41,450 nucleotides of DNA from contig JAPPLK010000033.1 in assembly GCA_028819435.1 (NCBI GenBank), positions 1-41,450 on the forward strand. Direction: 5' to 3'. Positions 2,706 through 41,450 of this stretch are shown here, in pieces; within the stretch, counting starts at the first letter, position 1, and every line of letters begins with the position of its first letter. The translations under genes and the position numbers were made by a program. Source of the DNA: Nitrospira sp. Its GTDB lineage: Bacteria; Nitrospirota; Nitrospiria; Nitrospirales; UBA8639. The notes beneath the pieces were generated by a model. That model saw only the letters and a list, made by a program, of their open reading frames with translations, was not told where the DNA came from and did no database searches.

Positions 2706-4385
2706 ATGGGCTTGAGAAAACACGAAGACTATAACCGGGAAATAGAAAAACTACGTGGAGAACTCCAGTCCCTGGAAACCGAAATGCGCCACTTGTATGA
2801 GACGCGCATGAAACTCCAACAATCGGAAAAACAGAATAAACGGCTCGCGGCCAGTCTCCAGGAAGCGAAAACCCAGATTGAAACCCTCCGCACGGAGATC
2901 GCTAAACTCACGGCTCCGCCGTCGTCGTATGCGCTCTTCTGCAGTTTGAATGACGATGCTAGCGCCAACGTCTACGTTTCGGGCAGAAAAATGCGCGTCA
3001 GCGTACACAATTCGGTGGCGAGCGCGTCTCTGCGAAAAGGTCAGGAAGTGATCTTGAATGAAGCTTTGAACATCATCGAGGCGCGGGCTTTCGATCCCCA
3101 GGGACAAGTCGTGAAGTTGAAAGATCAACTGGATGGCACGCGGGCGCTGATTCAATTGCACCACGACGAAGAACGCATCGTCGAGTTGGGAGAGCCGTTA
3201 CTCCACGAATCGCTGAGAGTGGGAGACCACCTGCTCTATGACCCCCGGTCCGGCTACGTCATCGAAAAAATTCCCAAGGCTGAAATCGAAGAGTTGGTGA
3301 TCGAAGAAGTGCCGGACGTGCAATATGAAGACGTCGGGGGGTTGACCAAAGAAGTTGAGCAGGTGACGGATGCCGTGGAATTGCCTTTTTTGTATCCTGA
3401 ACTGTTCAAGGAACATCGCCTGACTCCGCCCAAGGGCATCCTGTTGTACGGGCCTCCGGGGTGCGGAAAGACGATGATCGCCAAAGCCGTGGCGAATTCC
3501 ATTTCCAGGAAAATGCGGCATTTGTCCGGCAAGGACGTGCGTAGTTACTTCCTGCACGTGAAGGGACCCGAACTCTTGAACAAATACGTGGGTGAATCCG
3601 AACGGTACATCCGCGAGGTCTTCGCCAAAGCGCGGGACAAGGCGGCCACCGGCAATCCGGTCGTGGTGTTTTTCGATGAAATGGACGCGTTGTTCCGCAC
3701 GCGGGGGTCCGGGATCTCCTCCGATATCGAGTCCACCATCGTCCCTCAGTTTTTGGCGGAAATCGACGGGGTCGAAAAGCTCAAGAACGTGATTGTCATC
3801 GGGGCGAGCAACCGGCAGGACCTCATTGATCCCGCGGTGTTGCGAACGGGGCGGTTGGACGTGAAAGTCAAAATCCCCAGGCCGAACAAACAAGGTGCGC
3901 GGGATATTTTCGCCAAGTACCTCACCGATGACCTGCCGTTCGCCAAAGAGGAACTCGACCGTCACGCCCAGGACCGGCAGGCCGTGGTCTCACGCCTGCT
4001 CGACCTGGCGGTGGAAGCGATGTATGCCGCGACGGAAGACAACAAGTTCCTGGAAGTCACCTATGCCAACGGCGAAAAAGAACTTCTCTACTTCAAAGAC
4101 TTTTCCAGTGGCGCCCTGATCGAAGGCGTGGTCTCACGGGCGAAAAAAATCGCGGTGAAACGGGCCATCGGCACGGGAGAAAAAGGCCTGAAGGAAGAAG
4201 ACCTCTTGTGCGCCATTCGGGATGAATTCAAGGCGCATGAGGACCTGCCCAATACGACCAATCCCGATGACTGGGCCCGCATCGCCGGGAAAAAAGGCGA
4301 AAAAATCATCCACGTGCGGACCCTGACCCCCGGCCCGGAAGGAACACGCGAGATAGAAACCGTGAGTGCCGGGCATTACTTGTAG
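2706..4385 (+). CDS. mpa: Proteasome-activating AAA+ ATPase (Mpa/ARC)
   Basis: This hexameric ring unfoldase recognises tagged proteins and threads them into the 20S core. The 559 residues show an N-terminal coiled coil (about 3-65) that in actinobacteria binds Pup. OB-type domains (about 75-190) follow, then one AAA+ module. Walker A is GPPGCGKT (249-256) and Walker B is VVVFFDEMDA (Glu325). An arginine-finger region follows around LRTGRLDVKVKIPRP. The protein ends in GHYL, comparable to the GQYL tail of mycobacterial Mpa, whose penultimate Tyr docks into the 20S alpha ring. The ATG at 2706 follows AGGGGAAG. The stop TAG overlaps the first base of the downstream GTG, indicating translational coupling to dop. 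Confidence 0.95.
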   Translation: MGLRKHEDYNREIEKLRGELQSLETEMRHLYETRMKLQQSEKQNKRLAASLQEAKTQIETLRTEIAKLTAPPSSYALFCSLNDDASANVYVSGRKMRVSVHNSVASASLRKGQEVILNEALNIIEARAFDPQGQVVKLKDQLDGTRALIQLHHDEERIVELGEPLLHESLRVGDHLLYDPRSGYVIEKIPKAEIEELVIEEVPDVQYEDVGGLTKEVEQVTDAVELPFLYPELFKEHRLTPPKGILLYGPPGCGKTMIAKAVANSISRKMRHLSGKDVRSYFLHVKGPELLNKYVGESERYIREVFAKARDKAATGNPVVVFFDEMDALFRTRGSGISSDIESTIVPQFLAEIDGVEKLKNVIVIGASNRQDLIDPAVLRTGRLDVKVKIPRPNKQGARDIFAKYLTDDLPFAKEELDRHAQDRQAVVSRLLDLAVEAMYAATEDNKFLEVTYANGEKELLYFKDFSSGALIEGVVSRAKKIAVKRAIGTGEKGLKEEDLLCAIRDEFKAHEDLPNTTNPDDWARIAGKKGEKIIHVRTLTPGPEGTREIETVSAGHYL

Positions 4386-5878
4386 TGCTCTTGCTCAATG
4401 GGGAGCCCTTGCAGCGCATTATCGGCACAGAAACGGAATTTGGTGTCGCCTCGCGTCACGTCCACACGTCCGATCCCGTTGAGAATTCCCTCCACCTGAT
4501 CAGTCAGTACCCGTCGCTCATCGCCCCACAAGCCATTTGGGATTACGAAAACGAAAACCCCCTGCGTGACGCGCGCGGGTTTGAAGTCGAAGGCGAACGC
4601 GAACGTCCGGGTCCCGAGTATAACCGGGCGTTCAACAAACTCTTGGCGAACGGCGGTCGCCTGTACGTGGACGGGGCGCATCCCGAGTATTCAACGCCGG
4701 AGTGCAGTACCGCTCGAGAACTGGTCGCGTATGAACGAGCGGGAGAACTCGTGGCCGCCAAGTGCCTGGAGGCCATGAACCGGATGACGGAAGGGTACGT
4801 GCTGTACAAGAACAACTCCGACGGGAAGGGGAACAGCTACGGGTACCATGAAAATTATCTGATGAACCGCTCGGTGCCGTTCGACGTGATTCTTCAGGGC
4901 TTGCTGCCGTTTTTCGTGTCGCGTCCCATTGTTGCGGGAGCCGGGAAAGTCGGAGCGGAAAATGGAGCCGCGCCCGCGACGTACCAGATCTCTCAACGCG
5001 CGGACTTTTTTGAATGCGTGGCGGACCTCAATACCATGGTCAAACGGCCCCTGATCAACACCCGTGACGAGCCTCATGCGGACCCCGCGCGGTTTCGCCG
5101 GTTACACGTGATCGTCGGCGACGCCAACATGGCGGAACTCTCCACGTACCTGAAGGTGGGCACCACGGCGATCGTCACGCACATGCTGGACGAAGGCCAC
5201 GACGTCCCTGCGTTTGAGCTGGAGAACCCCGTGGACGCCGTCAAGATCGTCTCACGTGATCTCACCGTCAAGGCCGACCTGAAATTGGTCCGGGGTGGCG
5301 TGACCAACGCGTTGGCCATCCAACGTGCCTACCTCCGGGCCGCGCATGAGTTTTATGCCTGTCGCGAGTTATCGCCCGCGACCAAGGACGTGTTGGTGAG
5401 ATGGGAACACGTCCTGGATACACTCGAACGCGATCCCAGGCAATTGACAGCGGAACTCGATTGGGTGGCCAAACGGCAAATGATCGAGTCGTACGTGGAC
5501 CGAAAAGGCTGCGGATGGAATGATCCGCGCGTGGCCTTGATGGACCTCCAATACCACGACGTGCGGCCGGACAAGGGCCTGTATTATACGCTTGAACGGA
5601 GCCGTCGGATTGAACGCTTGCTGGATGACGAGGAAATCGTCGTCGCGGAATTACAGGCCCCGAGAGGGACGCGCGCCTATTTTCGCGGCGCCTGTCTCCG
5701 GAAATTTCCCCACCAGATCTACGGAGCCAGTTGGACCTCGGTGCTCTTCGACGTCGGAGACGTTGCGGTCAAACGGGTGCCGTTGATGGACCCCATGAGG
5801 GGAACGCAGGACCTGACCAATGAATTGTTGGAAGGCGTGGAAACCGCGCAACAACTCCTGGAACGGCTGTCGTCTTGA
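4385..5878 (+). CDS. dop: Depupylase/deamidase Dop
   Basis: Dop belongs to the glutamine-synthetase-like Pup ligase fold. It deamidates a C-terminal Gln of Pup and removes Pup from substrates. Visible family features are QRIIGTETEFG (metal-binding Glu residues), the catalytic Asp in YVDGAHPEYSTPEC, KNNSDGKGNSYGYHENYL, INTRDEPHAD, GDANMAELSTYLK, and the C-terminal RAYFRGACLRKFP and ASWTSVLFD segments typical of Dop rather than PafA. At 497 residues it is longer than the pafA product. The start is uncertain: GTG 4385 overlaps the mpa stop, while TTG 4409 would give MQRIIGTE, exactly the start of mycobacterial Dop, with GGGGAG just upstream. Confidence 0.93.
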   Translation: MLLLNGEPLQRIIGTETEFGVASRHVHTSDPVENSLHLISQYPSLIAPQAIWDYENENPLRDARGFEVEGERERPGPEYNRAFNKLLANGGRLYVDGAHPEYSTPECSTARELVAYERAGELVAAKCLEAMNRMTEGYVLYKNNSDGKGNSYGYHENYLMNRSVPFDVILQGLLPFFVSRPIVAGAGKVGAENGAAPATYQISQRADFFECVADLNTMVKRPLINTRDEPHADPARFRRLHVIVGDANMAELSTYLKVGTTAIVTHMLDEGHDVPAFELENPVDAVKIVSRDLTVKADLKLVRGGVTNALAIQRAYLRAAHEFYACRELSPATKDVLVRWEHVLDTLERDPRQLTAELDWVAKRQMIESYVDRKGCGWNDPRVALMDLQYHDVRPDKGLYYTLERSRRIERLLDDEEIVVAELQAPRGTRAYFRGACLRKFPHQIYGASWTSVLFDVGDVAVKRVPLMDPMRGTQDLTNELLEGVETAQQLLERLSS

Positions 5879-6132
5879 TCTACCTCCCCTCACCCCTCCT
5901 TACAAAGGAGGGGAAGGATTTGGGGGCTTTATCCCTCCCCTTTGTAAGGGGAGGAAAGGTGGGGTAGAGTGTTTGGACTTGTGACGTGTGTGCGGAAATT
6001 GTCAATGTCTGTCCCGACCCTTCGACTTCAGGCGCGGGGCGCCTTACGCTCAGGGCGAACGGGGGAGTGAAGGCGAAGTGAATCAGTGAACCCACACAGA
6101 AACGACAAAGTATGAGGTAACTTCTGGTCACC
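5879..6132 (+). repeat. dop-prcB spacer filled with three dispersed repeats; no pup
   Basis: The spacer holds two 21-bp palindromes (5893-5913, centred on TACAAAGGAG, and 5934-5954, centred on TTTGTAAGG). A third repeat at about 6018-6062 is of the type CCCTTCGACTT...CTCAGGGCGAACGG. The same 21-bp palindromes recur at 35363-35383 and 35457-35477, and the third type recurs around 13200-13330. In most pup-proteasome operons the pup gene lies in this gap. No forward frame here encodes a Pup- or UBact-like protein. Confidence 0.75.
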
Positions 6133-6969
6133 ATGAAACCTATCCTGTCGCAAATGCCCGTGAGTCAATGTTCCAGTTTTTTTGATTTTATCCATCAGAC
6201 CCGGCCCGAACTGACACCCGCTGCACGGTGGGGGAGCGAGGGCCACGTCTCGGCGTCGGTGGACGAGATTCAACGGCACGTCCTGTCGCAACTTGCTCAC
6301 GGGACGACCGTGTTGGCCGTGAAATACGAGAAAGGCGTGGTGATCGTCGGGGACCGCCGCGCCATAGAAGGTTACCAGGTGGCATCGCGTCGTATGGAGA
6401 AGGTCTTCAAGACCGACAGCCATTCAGCCATCGCCATTGCCGGGGCCGCGGGACCGTGCATGGAAATGGCCAAGTTGTTCGGCATCGAACTGGAACATTA
6501 TGAAAAACTGGATGGTGTGCCGTTGTCCTGCGAAGGGAAGGCCAACAGGTTGGGGCAGATGGTGAAAGCCAATTTGCCCATGGTCATCCAAGGGTTGGTC
6601 GTAATCCCGCTGTTCGTGGGGTTTGACCTGAAGCAACGGGAGGGCCGGATTTTCAAATATGACGTCACCGGCGGAAAATACGAAGAAACGGAATATCACG
6701 CGGTCGGGTCCGGGGGAAAAGACGCCCGGGTGACCATCAAGGAACGGTTTCGCAAAAATCTCTCCCAGCCCGAAGCGATTTCCCTGGGGCTCCAGGCGAT
6801 CCTGAGCGCGGCGGAAGAGGACCTGGGAACCGGCGGACCTGATTCGTTCAGGGGCATTTATCCCACGATCAAAATCGTCGATGCCCAAGGCGTGCGGGAC
6901 GTGGAAGAATCTGCGGTGGCGTCCCAATGCGACCAGTTGGCTCAATCACGACCCGGGGGTGAATCCTGA
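6133..6969 (+). CDS. prcB: 20S proteasome beta subunit PrcB
   Basis: PrcB is the N-terminal nucleophile (Thr) hydrolase subunit of the 20S core. The 278-residue precursor has a propeptide of about 57 residues. Autocleavage before the catalytic threonine is expected at HG|TTVLAVKYEKGVV (Thr58). The region GDRRAIEGY, the segment LFGIELEHYEKLDGVPLS and the motif TGGPDSFRGIYPT closely follow actinobacterial PrcB. The ATG at 6133 lacks a strong ribosome site, and the ATG at 6154 is an alternative that shortens only the propeptide. The stop overlaps the prcA start in TGATG, so the two subunits are translationally coupled. Confidence 0.96.
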   Translation: MKPILSQMPVSQCSSFFDFIHQTRPELTPAARWGSEGHVSASVDEIQRHVLSQLAHGTTVLAVKYEKGVVIVGDRRAIEGYQVASRRMEKVFKTDSHSAIAIAGAAGPCMEMAKLFGIELEHYEKLDGVPLSCEGKANRLGQMVKANLPMVIQGLVVIPLFVGFDLKQREGRIFKYDVTGGKYEETEYHAVGSGGKDARVTIKERFRKNLSQPEAISLGLQAILSAAEEDLGTGGPDSFRGIYPTIKIVDAQGVRDVEESAVASQCDQLAQSRPGGES

Positions 6970-7652
6970 TGACGCTGCCGTTTTACGTGTCCCCCGAACA
7001 ATTGATGCAGGACAAGGCGGAGTATGCCAAAAAAGGCATTGCCAAGGGCCGGTCGATCGTGGCCATCGAGTACCGGGACGGCGTGCTGTTCGTTGCGGAT
7101 AATCCCAGCAGTTCATTGTTCAAGATCTCCGAAATTTACGACAACATCGCCTTTTCAGGAGCAGGGAGATACAGCGAATTCGAAAGCCTGCGAAAAGCGG
7201 GCATTCAACACGCCGACTTGAAGGGGTTCATGTACAGTCGTGAAGACGTCACGGCCCGTTCCCTGGCCAACGGGTATTCGCAGACCCTGGGCACGATATT
7301 CAGCCAGGAACTGAAACCCTTCGAAGTGGAAATTCTTTTGGCCCAAATCGGAGAACAACCCGAACAGACGGAATTGTACCGCATCGCGTTCGATGGGACG
7401 ATCATTCATGAAAAGGAATTCGTCGCCATCGGAGGCCGAGCGGACGCCGTGGTATCCGCCCTGCGCTCGCTGGGGTCAGGAGACGTCCTGGACCTGACAA
7501 CCGCCCTCACCCGGTGCATGAACGCTCTCGAAACCGCCACGGGCCAAAACGTGTCTCTCCAATCGCTCGAAGTCGCCCTCCTCGACCGCACCCGCACCGG
7601 CCGCAAATTCCGCCGTGTCGGCGCAGAAGAAGCCAGCAGTCTTCTTTCATAA
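6969..7652 (+). CDS. prcA: 20S proteasome alpha subunit PrcA
   Basis: PrcA forms the outer gating rings of the 20S particle and the docking sites for the ATPase. The 227-residue product begins MTLPFYVSPEQLMQDKAEYA, the gate-forming N-terminus and first alpha-subunit helix, followed by KGRSIVAIEYRDGVLFVADN. It lacks the catalytic Thr, as expected for an alpha subunit. It starts at the ATG overlapping the prcB stop by one base. The C-terminus is short and serine-rich. A 224-bp repeat-filled gap follows before pafA. Confidence 0.94.
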   Translation: MTLPFYVSPEQLMQDKAEYAKKGIAKGRSIVAIEYRDGVLFVADNPSSSLFKISEIYDNIAFSGAGRYSEFESLRKAGIQHADLKGFMYSREDVTARSLANGYSQTLGTIFSQELKPFEVEILLAQIGEQPEQTELYRIAFDGTIIHEKEFVAIGGRADAVVSALRSLGSGDVLDLTTALTRCMNALETATGQNVSLQSLEVALLDRTRTGRKFRRVGAEEASSLLS

Positions 7653-7876
7653 TCTCACGTCATTTAGGAAAAAAGAAAATCCCCTGGATCCCCGATCTGG
7701 TCGGGAATGACAGATGGTAGGGGCAGGCCCCTGTGCCTGCCCTCCCCATAAAGGACAACCACAGGGGGTTGTCCCTACGATGACAGGCCTTCCCCTCACC
7801 CTACCCTCTCCCAGTGGGAGAGGGTGATCCCGGATGGTCTGTTCCGTCTGTGTCGCGTCTATGCTAACATGAGTTT
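7653..7876 (+). repeat. prcA-pafA spacer with four dispersed repeats
   Basis: Four different short palindromic families lie side by side: CCTGGATCCCCGAT...TCGGGAATGACAG (7684-7713), GGGGCAGGCCCCTGTGCCTGCC (7720-7742), GACAACCACAGGGGGTTGTC (7754-7773) and the CCTCACCCTACCCTCTCCC-GGGAGAGGG family (7793-7825). I see no pup gene and no strong promoter. TATGCT at about 7859-7864 could be a weak -10. Confidence 0.65.
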
Positions 7877-9250
7877 ATGAAACGCATTTTCGGACTGGAG
7901 TGTGAATACGGTCTCACCTTCTCGCCCAATGGCCGGGTGTATCTGCCCATTGAAAAAATCCTGGGATACATCTTCGAAGGGTTGATCCCGAACAGTTGGC
8001 CTTCCAACGCGTTTCTCACGAACGGGGCCAGGTTTTATCAGGACACGGGGTGTCATCCCGAATATGCCACACCGGAATGTGATGACATTTTCGAGTTGGT
8101 GGTGCATGAAAAAGCCGGCGAGCGGATACTCGAATCATGCCTGCCGGCGGCTGAAGAACGTCTCCGGGAAGAAGGCCTTGCCGGCGACATCTACATTTTC
8201 AAGAACAACACGGATTCCCTGGGGAATACCTACGGGTGCCATGAAAACTTCCTGATGCAGCGTGACGTGGATTTTTGGAAAGTGGCCGAACAGCTCATCC
8301 CGTTTTTCGTGACGCGACAGATTTATTCAGGCGCGGGGAAAGTGCTCAAGGTCTCGGGTAAACCGCACTACTTCCTGTCCCAGCGGGCCCAGCACATTCA
8401 TGAAAAAACCTCGTCTTCCACCACCTCGTCCCGCAGCATCATCAACACGCGGGATGAACCACATGCCGACGCCGAAAAGTATCGACGTCTCCATATCATT
8501 CTTGGAGATTCGAATATGTCGGAGTTTGCCACGTACCTGAAGATCGGCACCGCGGACTTGGTGTTGTCCATGATCGAGGCCGGGTATTTTATCAGGAGCA
8601 TTGAATTGGAAGATCCCGTCAAGGCCATCAGGGAAATTTCCCGGGACCCCACGTTGAAGAAAAAGGTGAAGCTGGATGACGGGCGGGAGTTTTCCGCGCT
8701 GGAGATCCAGCGCATCTACCTGGAAAAGGCCTCGGAATTTCTCCATGCCCGGCCCTATGACAAGGTGCTGGCCGACGTCCTGACTGAATGGGAACGCGTG
8801 TTGAATGCGTTGGAGGATGATCCCGTGCAGTTGGTGCGGGAGATCGATTGGGTGACAAAACGCTGGCTCATCCAGTCATACATTGAGAGAAAAGGGTGTG
8901 GGTGGGATGACCCGCGGGTGGCGATGATGGACCTGCAATATCACGACGTGAACCGGAAGCGCGGGCTTTATTACATTTTGGAGGCGCACGAAAAGACGGT
9001 GAAGATGGTGGATGAGGAAGCCGTGGAACGCGCCACGTCCATGCCACCTCAATCCACCCGCGCCAAGGTGCGAGGCGACTTTATCCGGTTCGCCCGGGCC
9101 AAGAACCGATCCTACACGGTCGACTGGACGTACTTGAAATTAAACGGCTATTGGGAAGAAACGATCTTGTGCATGGATCCCTTTTGTGCGTTCAACCGGC
9201 GGGTGGATGAACTGTTGGCCCAGGTGTCTCCCGCTTCCCTCCGGATGTGA
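7877..9250 (+). CDS. pafA: Pup/UBact--protein ligase PafA
   Basis: PafA attaches the C-terminal glutamate of Pup (or a UBact-type modifier) to substrate lysines using ATP. The 457-residue product starts MKRIFGLECEYG, the canonical PafA N-terminus. It keeps the catalytic Asp in FYQDTGCHPEYATPEC and has KNNTDSLGNTYGCHENF, INTRDEPHAD and GDSNMSEFATYLK. Its segment FIRFARAKNRSYTVDWTYLK is the C-terminal substrate/Pup-binding domain found in PafA. It is clearly distinct from the dop paralogue upstream. The ATG at 7877 follows ACATGAGTTT without a clear ribosome site. The M23 peptidase start is one base past its stop. Confidence 0.94.
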   Translation: MKRIFGLECEYGLTFSPNGRVYLPIEKILGYIFEGLIPNSWPSNAFLTNGARFYQDTGCHPEYATPECDDIFELVVHEKAGERILESCLPAAEERLREEGLAGDIYIFKNNTDSLGNTYGCHENFLMQRDVDFWKVAEQLIPFFVTRQIYSGAGKVLKVSGKPHYFLSQRAQHIHEKTSSSTTSSRSIINTRDEPHADAEKYRRLHIILGDSNMSEFATYLKIGTADLVLSMIEAGYFIRSIELEDPVKAIREISRDPTLKKKVKLDDGREFSALEIQRIYLEKASEFLHARPYDKVLADVLTEWERVLNALEDDPVQLVREIDWVTKRWLIQSYIERKGCGWDDPRVAMMDLQYHDVNRKRGLYYILEAHEKTVKMVDEEAVERATSMPPQSTRAKVRGDFIRFARAKNRSYTVDWTYLKLNGYWEETILCMDPFCAFNRRVDELLAQVSPASLRM

Positions 9251-10195: not shown

Positions 10196-10337
10196 GGAAC
10201 CTCTGATTTATTGTGATAGCGGGATGCAGGGCAAGGCGTCCCGGAGCGAAACCCGAGGCTTATCATCGAGATAGGTGAGGGTTGAGTGAGGACACAACGC
10301 AGCCATGCGCCCGATAGTGCAGTAAATCAGAGGTTCC
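10196..10337 (+). mobile_element. 142-bp MITE-like element inserted in a start codon
   Basis: This is a complete element with 15-bp perfect terminal inverted repeats (GGAACCTCTGATTTA) extending imperfectly to about 30 bp. It is flanked by the direct repeat TGAA (10192-10195 and 10338-10341), the mark of a transposition event. It encodes no transposase, so it must be mobilised in trans; the 4-bp duplication fits IS5-type elements but the family is not identified. Removing the element and one TGAA restores ATGAACAACGTC, the expected start of the downstream LOG gene. The element itself carries AGGTGAGGG (10273-10281) and a GTG (10286) in frame with that gene. Confidence 0.9.
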
Positions 10338-28375: not shown

Positions 28376-28517
28376 GGAACCTCTGAGTTATTGTGATAGC
28401 GGGATGCAGGGCAAGGCGTCCCGGAGCGAAACCCGAAGCTTATCATGGAGATAGGTGAGGGTTGAGCGAGGACACAACGCAGCCATGCGCCCGATAGTGC
28501 AATAAATCAGAGGTTCC
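28376..28517 (+). mobile_element. 142-bp MITE-like element directly before the endonuclease Q start
   Basis: This second complete copy has the same length and orientation as the copy at 10196-10337 and differs at five positions. One change turns the GTG used by the LOG gene into GCG. The right-hand terminal repeat CAGAGGTTCC ends 3 bp before the ATG of the next gene, so its AGAGG falls at ribosome-site distance. The flanks (CCAT and TTCA) show no clear target duplication. Confidence 0.88.
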
Positions 28518-41402: not shown

Positions 41403-41450
41403 GGAACCTCTGAGTTATTGTGATAGCGGGATGCAGGGCAAGGCGTCCCG
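41403..41450 (+). mobile_element. 142-bp MITE-like element, partial copy at window end
   Basis: The first 48 bases of the element are present and identical to the copy at 28376. The outer terminal repeat begins at 41403. The four bases outside it are TCTG, the expected target duplication. It lies 21 bp upstream of the annotated start of the tRNA nucleotidyltransferase gene, on the N-terminal side of that gene. Confidence 0.85.

Follow-up and report, generated by a model that had tools for sequence, protein, structure and literature searches.

Where the proteasome gene cluster of this Nitrospirales bacterium finds its modifier is the question raised by the DNA analysed here, a stretch of 41,450 nucleotides (hereafter, the window). 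The cluster has the gene order ARC/Mpa, dop, prcB, prcA and pafA, spans positions 2706-9250 with all genes on the plus strand, and does not have pup between dop and prcB, a usual but non-essential feature of Pup systems:

2706-4385, plus strand: ARC/Mpa, the proteasomal AAA ATPase (TIGR03689, 736 bits, cut-off 505; Pfam OB and AAA domains)
4385-5878, plus strand: dop, depupylase/deamidase, with a GTG start (TIGR03688, 543 bits, cut-off 492)
5879-6132, strand not applicable: gap between dop and prcB, with dispersed repeats and without a modifier gene (inverted repeat, genomic copies, six-frame Pup search)
6133-6969, plus strand: prcB, proteasome beta subunit (TIGR03690, 282 bits, over the cut-off)
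6969-7652, plus strand: prcA, proteasome alpha subunit (TIGR03691, 305 bits, over the cut-off)
7877-9250, plus strand: pafA, Pup ligase (TIGR03686, 568 bits, cut-off 551)

A preliminary description of the window had called these five genes intact and linked, and both the open reading frames and the curated cut-offs of the NCBIfam equivalog models, which all five proteins passed, support this. The same is true of its statement that the ATPase keeps its coiled coil and GHYL tail, as the N terminus of the protein contains a heptad-like coiled-coil stretch and the C terminus reads AGHYL.

The gap is exactly 254 bp long, with dop ending at 5878 and prcB starting at 6133, and we found that it is occupied by repeats rather than by a modifier gene, as the preliminary description had proposed. 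It contains one 35-nt inverted repeat, at 5879-5968, which is imperfect (77% complementarity). Two stretches of the gap (approximately 5879-5970 and 5994-6092) have copies at tens of other sites in the 2.62-Mb draft genome; genome-wide matches to these parts numbered 62 in total, a figure that includes the window itself and some duplicates counted on both strands. When all six frames of the entire window were searched with a Pup hidden Markov model (HMM) derived from 32 Nitrospirales Pup reads, there was no match. Two open reading frames in the gap were considered as hidden modifiers and rejected. The only long one, which encodes 84 aa on the minus strand (5880-6134), matched no NCBIfam, PHROGs or Pfam family; a 54-aa frame on the plus strand likewise had no family match, and neither product has a Pup-like end.

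The preliminary description had implied that the modifier gene was absent and had offered three explanations: that it is encoded elsewhere, that repeats invading the gap displaced it, or that the modifier is of an unrecognised kind. Searching the rest of the genome with a Pup profile, as it had suggested, settled the matter in favour of the first. The Pfam Pup model gave a single strong match, at 1749-1937 on the minus strand of contig C14 (E = 9.4e-20), and the corresponding pup gene occupies G000:C14:1746-1943 on the minus strand (L001:1498-1695:-), outside the window but in the same genome. Its product of 65 aa, MEKQERKSEAARNSSQAQEVKSNPQVIESGKKLQEDIDQLVEEIDEVLEENAAEFVKNYVQKGGE, ends in FVKNYVQKGGE and scored above the cut-offs of both Pfam PF05639 (72.5 bits, E = 5.6e-20, cut-off 27) and NCBIfam TIGR03687 (54.6 bits, cut-off 41). 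The C-terminal 38-39 residues, including the terminal GGE, can be aligned directly with Pup chains of solved structures (3m91_B and 3m9d_G); 3m91 is the complex of Pup with the Mpa coiled coil. The genome that carries the cluster therefore also encodes a Pup with one of the two expected ends, GGE or GGQ (here, QKGGE). Among the 32 Nitrospirales Pup reads, which count the window genome's own pup twice (L001 and L033), 27 end in GGE and 5 in GGQ. The C14 gene is flanked by hppA, which encodes a membrane pyrophosphatase, on one side and by recJ on the other. A second match to Pup, on contig C83, lay within a 511-aa frame and scored 13.9 bits; it is below the cut-off and was taken as chance. We are nearly certain from the sequence comparisons that the cluster forms, together with this gene, a complete Pup-proteasome system of the ordinary kind, in a Nitrospirales bacterium that keeps pup apart at a conserved locus of its own; the order there is hppA - pup - recJ, and in relatives relA/spoT follows recJ.

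As C14 measures 5.9 kb and the draft assembly has an estimated contamination of 2.9%, we examined its membership through relatives. One pup match each was present in 58 of 60 related genomes, 57 of these matches being over the cut-off, and all 19 genera were represented. Such a conserved second locus is what the preliminary description had itself named as evidence against its reading. The sub-threshold match (G053) contains an internal stop. The two genomes that gave no pup match (G036 and G043) are both drafts in 130-280 contigs, in which either gene loss or missing sequence is possible. Congeners keep the same neighbours of pup as C14, and their proteins at this locus are close to those of C14 (approximately 85-95% identity for Pup, 80-93% for RecJ and 97-99% for HppA), the most divergent congener, G010, having 64%, 69% and 91% identity, respectively. 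In congeners assembled as a single contig, pup lies approximately 88 kb (G011) or 115 kb (G010) from dop. With the neighbours shared and the three proteins this similar, C14 fits the genus; it is synteny in relatives, and not the assembly, that ties this contig to the chromosome of the window. It could be argued from the small contig, the draft state of the genome and the estimated contamination that this pup came from another organism and that the organism of the window has none. This is very improbable, given that the same locus with similar Pup, RecJ and HppA recurs in congeners, two of them single-contig, and that the assembly contains only one copy of pup.

We then compared the organization of pup across the order. 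Flanks of up to 3 kb around pup contain neither dop nor prcB at any of 38 named Nitrospirales loci (L064-L101). Downstream of pup lies recJ in 21 of the 38 and relA/spoT in another 14, and hppA is often found upstream. Of the three others, two are short contigs, and the third lacks these neighbours. The neighbourhood hppA - pup - recJ - relA/spoT is conserved across these loci, and in some genera recJ is missing between pup and relA/spoT. In a control set from outside Nitrospirales, which consisted of Actinobacteria (including one Acidimicrobiia genome) and Myxococcota/Deltaproteobacteria, prcB directly followed pup in all 42 loci, mostly with dop before pup.

The gap between dop and prcB, which the preliminary description had proposed to compare with that of relatives, is mostly shorter than 90 bp in other genera and likewise lacks pup; searching the dop-prcB regions of approximately 30 relatives in all frames yielded no credible Pup. 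The gap is also enlarged in some congeners (approximately 159-275 bp), and long, repeat-bearing gaps occur mainly in the genus of the window. Detachment of pup at the Nitrospirales loci, together with short gaps that hold no pup in other genera, indicates that the detachment is older than the genus, and these comparisons would most simply make it as old as the order. On the same sequence evidence, the repeats in the gap are a later feature, unrelated to the detachment. This bears on the second explanation, according to which invading repeats pushed pup out of an original position between dop and prcB in this genus. Although the 254-bp gap here, the enlarged gaps of some congeners and the mobile-looking repeats would fit such an event, it is exceedingly improbable, because congeners and other genera whose gaps are under 90 bp also have no pup there and keep it at the same second locus.

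With a textbook Pup encoded on C14, there is no need for the third explanation, that of an unrecognised modifier. That the cluster works with such a modifier or with one of the UBact type has next to no probability: sister genera do possess a second cluster with a UBact modifier, but the UBact model NF033388, a profile of the kind that the preliminary description had also suggested applying to the genome, had no match in the window genome at E values up to 10 or in 13 congeners at E values up to 0.01, the Dop and PafA of the window pass Pup-system equivalog cut-offs that their UBact-cluster paralogues fail, and the genome encodes a canonical Pup. Among the 60 relatives, 34 gave a UBact match, which exceeded the cut-off in 33; all 34 lie outside the genus of the window. 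Most genomes that bear UBact have four matches to PF03136 instead of two. One such genome, G016, carries beside its Pup system a divergent second cluster (L144, G016:C2:3566500-3579500) composed of an ATPase gene, a Dop-like gene, UBact, prcB, prcA and a PafA-like gene. The UBact protein of L144 is 80 aa long, ends in RTGE and is encoded between the Dop-like gene and prcB. The ATPase, Dop-like and PafA-like proteins of L144 fall below the Pup-system cut-offs, whereas the window proteins lie above them.

Gene locations and family memberships were read from the genomes directly; for the biochemistry of this Pup system, we infer from the characterised actinobacterial system a conventional cycle. 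PafA would ligate the terminal glutamate of Pup to lysines of target proteins, and, because the C14 Pup ends in GGE, prior deamidation would not be required. ARC would then bind the helical C-terminal half of Pup through its coiled coil and, docked by its GHYL tail, would thread the target into the PrcA/PrcB 20S core, while Dop would take Pup off for reuse. In relatives with a Pup that ends in GGQ, Dop would deamidate Pup as well.

This Pup system shares all of its protein families, and the order of the five genes in the cluster, with the actinobacterial system (mpa/arc - dop - pup - prcB - prcA - pafA), and Nitrospirales Pup resembles actinobacterial Pup in its C-terminal helix and GGE/GGQ end; what differs is the position of pup, which in Nitrospirales lies at the hppA-recJ-relA/spoT locus and not between dop and prcB. 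According to a 2012 review, the gene order is rigidly conserved among organisms that pupylate (PMC3511204), and the detached Nitrospirales pup is a small correction to this textbook order. Reports of Pup in Nitrospirae go back to 2007-2008 (PMC2588565, PMC3511204), and Leptospirillum, described in 2007-2012 (PMC2588565, PMC3511204), provides another Pup system from Gram-negative Nitrospirae. The detached pup is therefore a variation in gene organization and not a new kind of system. Leptospirillum ferrooxidans is reported to have two complete copies of the system with identical genetic surroundings, the second of them with a Pup that has no GGE (PMC3511204), whereas the genus of the window has a single cluster and keeps pup apart from it. 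The UBact system (NF033388) has ATPase, Dop-like, PafA-like and proteasome genes homologous to those of the window, but differs in the position of its small modifier, which is encoded after the Dop-like gene and before prcB, and, in L144, in the RTGE end. These results remove a false lead, that of an unknown modifier in this organism, and leave a well-defined group of genomes in which a Pup and a UBact system occur together and can be compared. It is conceivable, though unlikely, that the position of pup beside recJ and relA/spoT in Nitrospirales could couple the supply of Pup to stringent-response or DNA-repair regulation, and that the parallel UBact proteasome of many relatives was lost or never gained in the genus of the window.

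An 18-bp motif, CAATAAATCAGAGGTTCC, also recurs in the window, with six occurrences at two or fewer mismatches compared with 0.01 expected (37-54, 10196-10213, 10320-10337, 28376-28393, 28500-28517 and 41403-41420). Four of these sites form two inverted pairs approximately 140 bp across (10196-10337 and 28376-28517), and the recurrence of the motif suggests a small dispersed repeat element.
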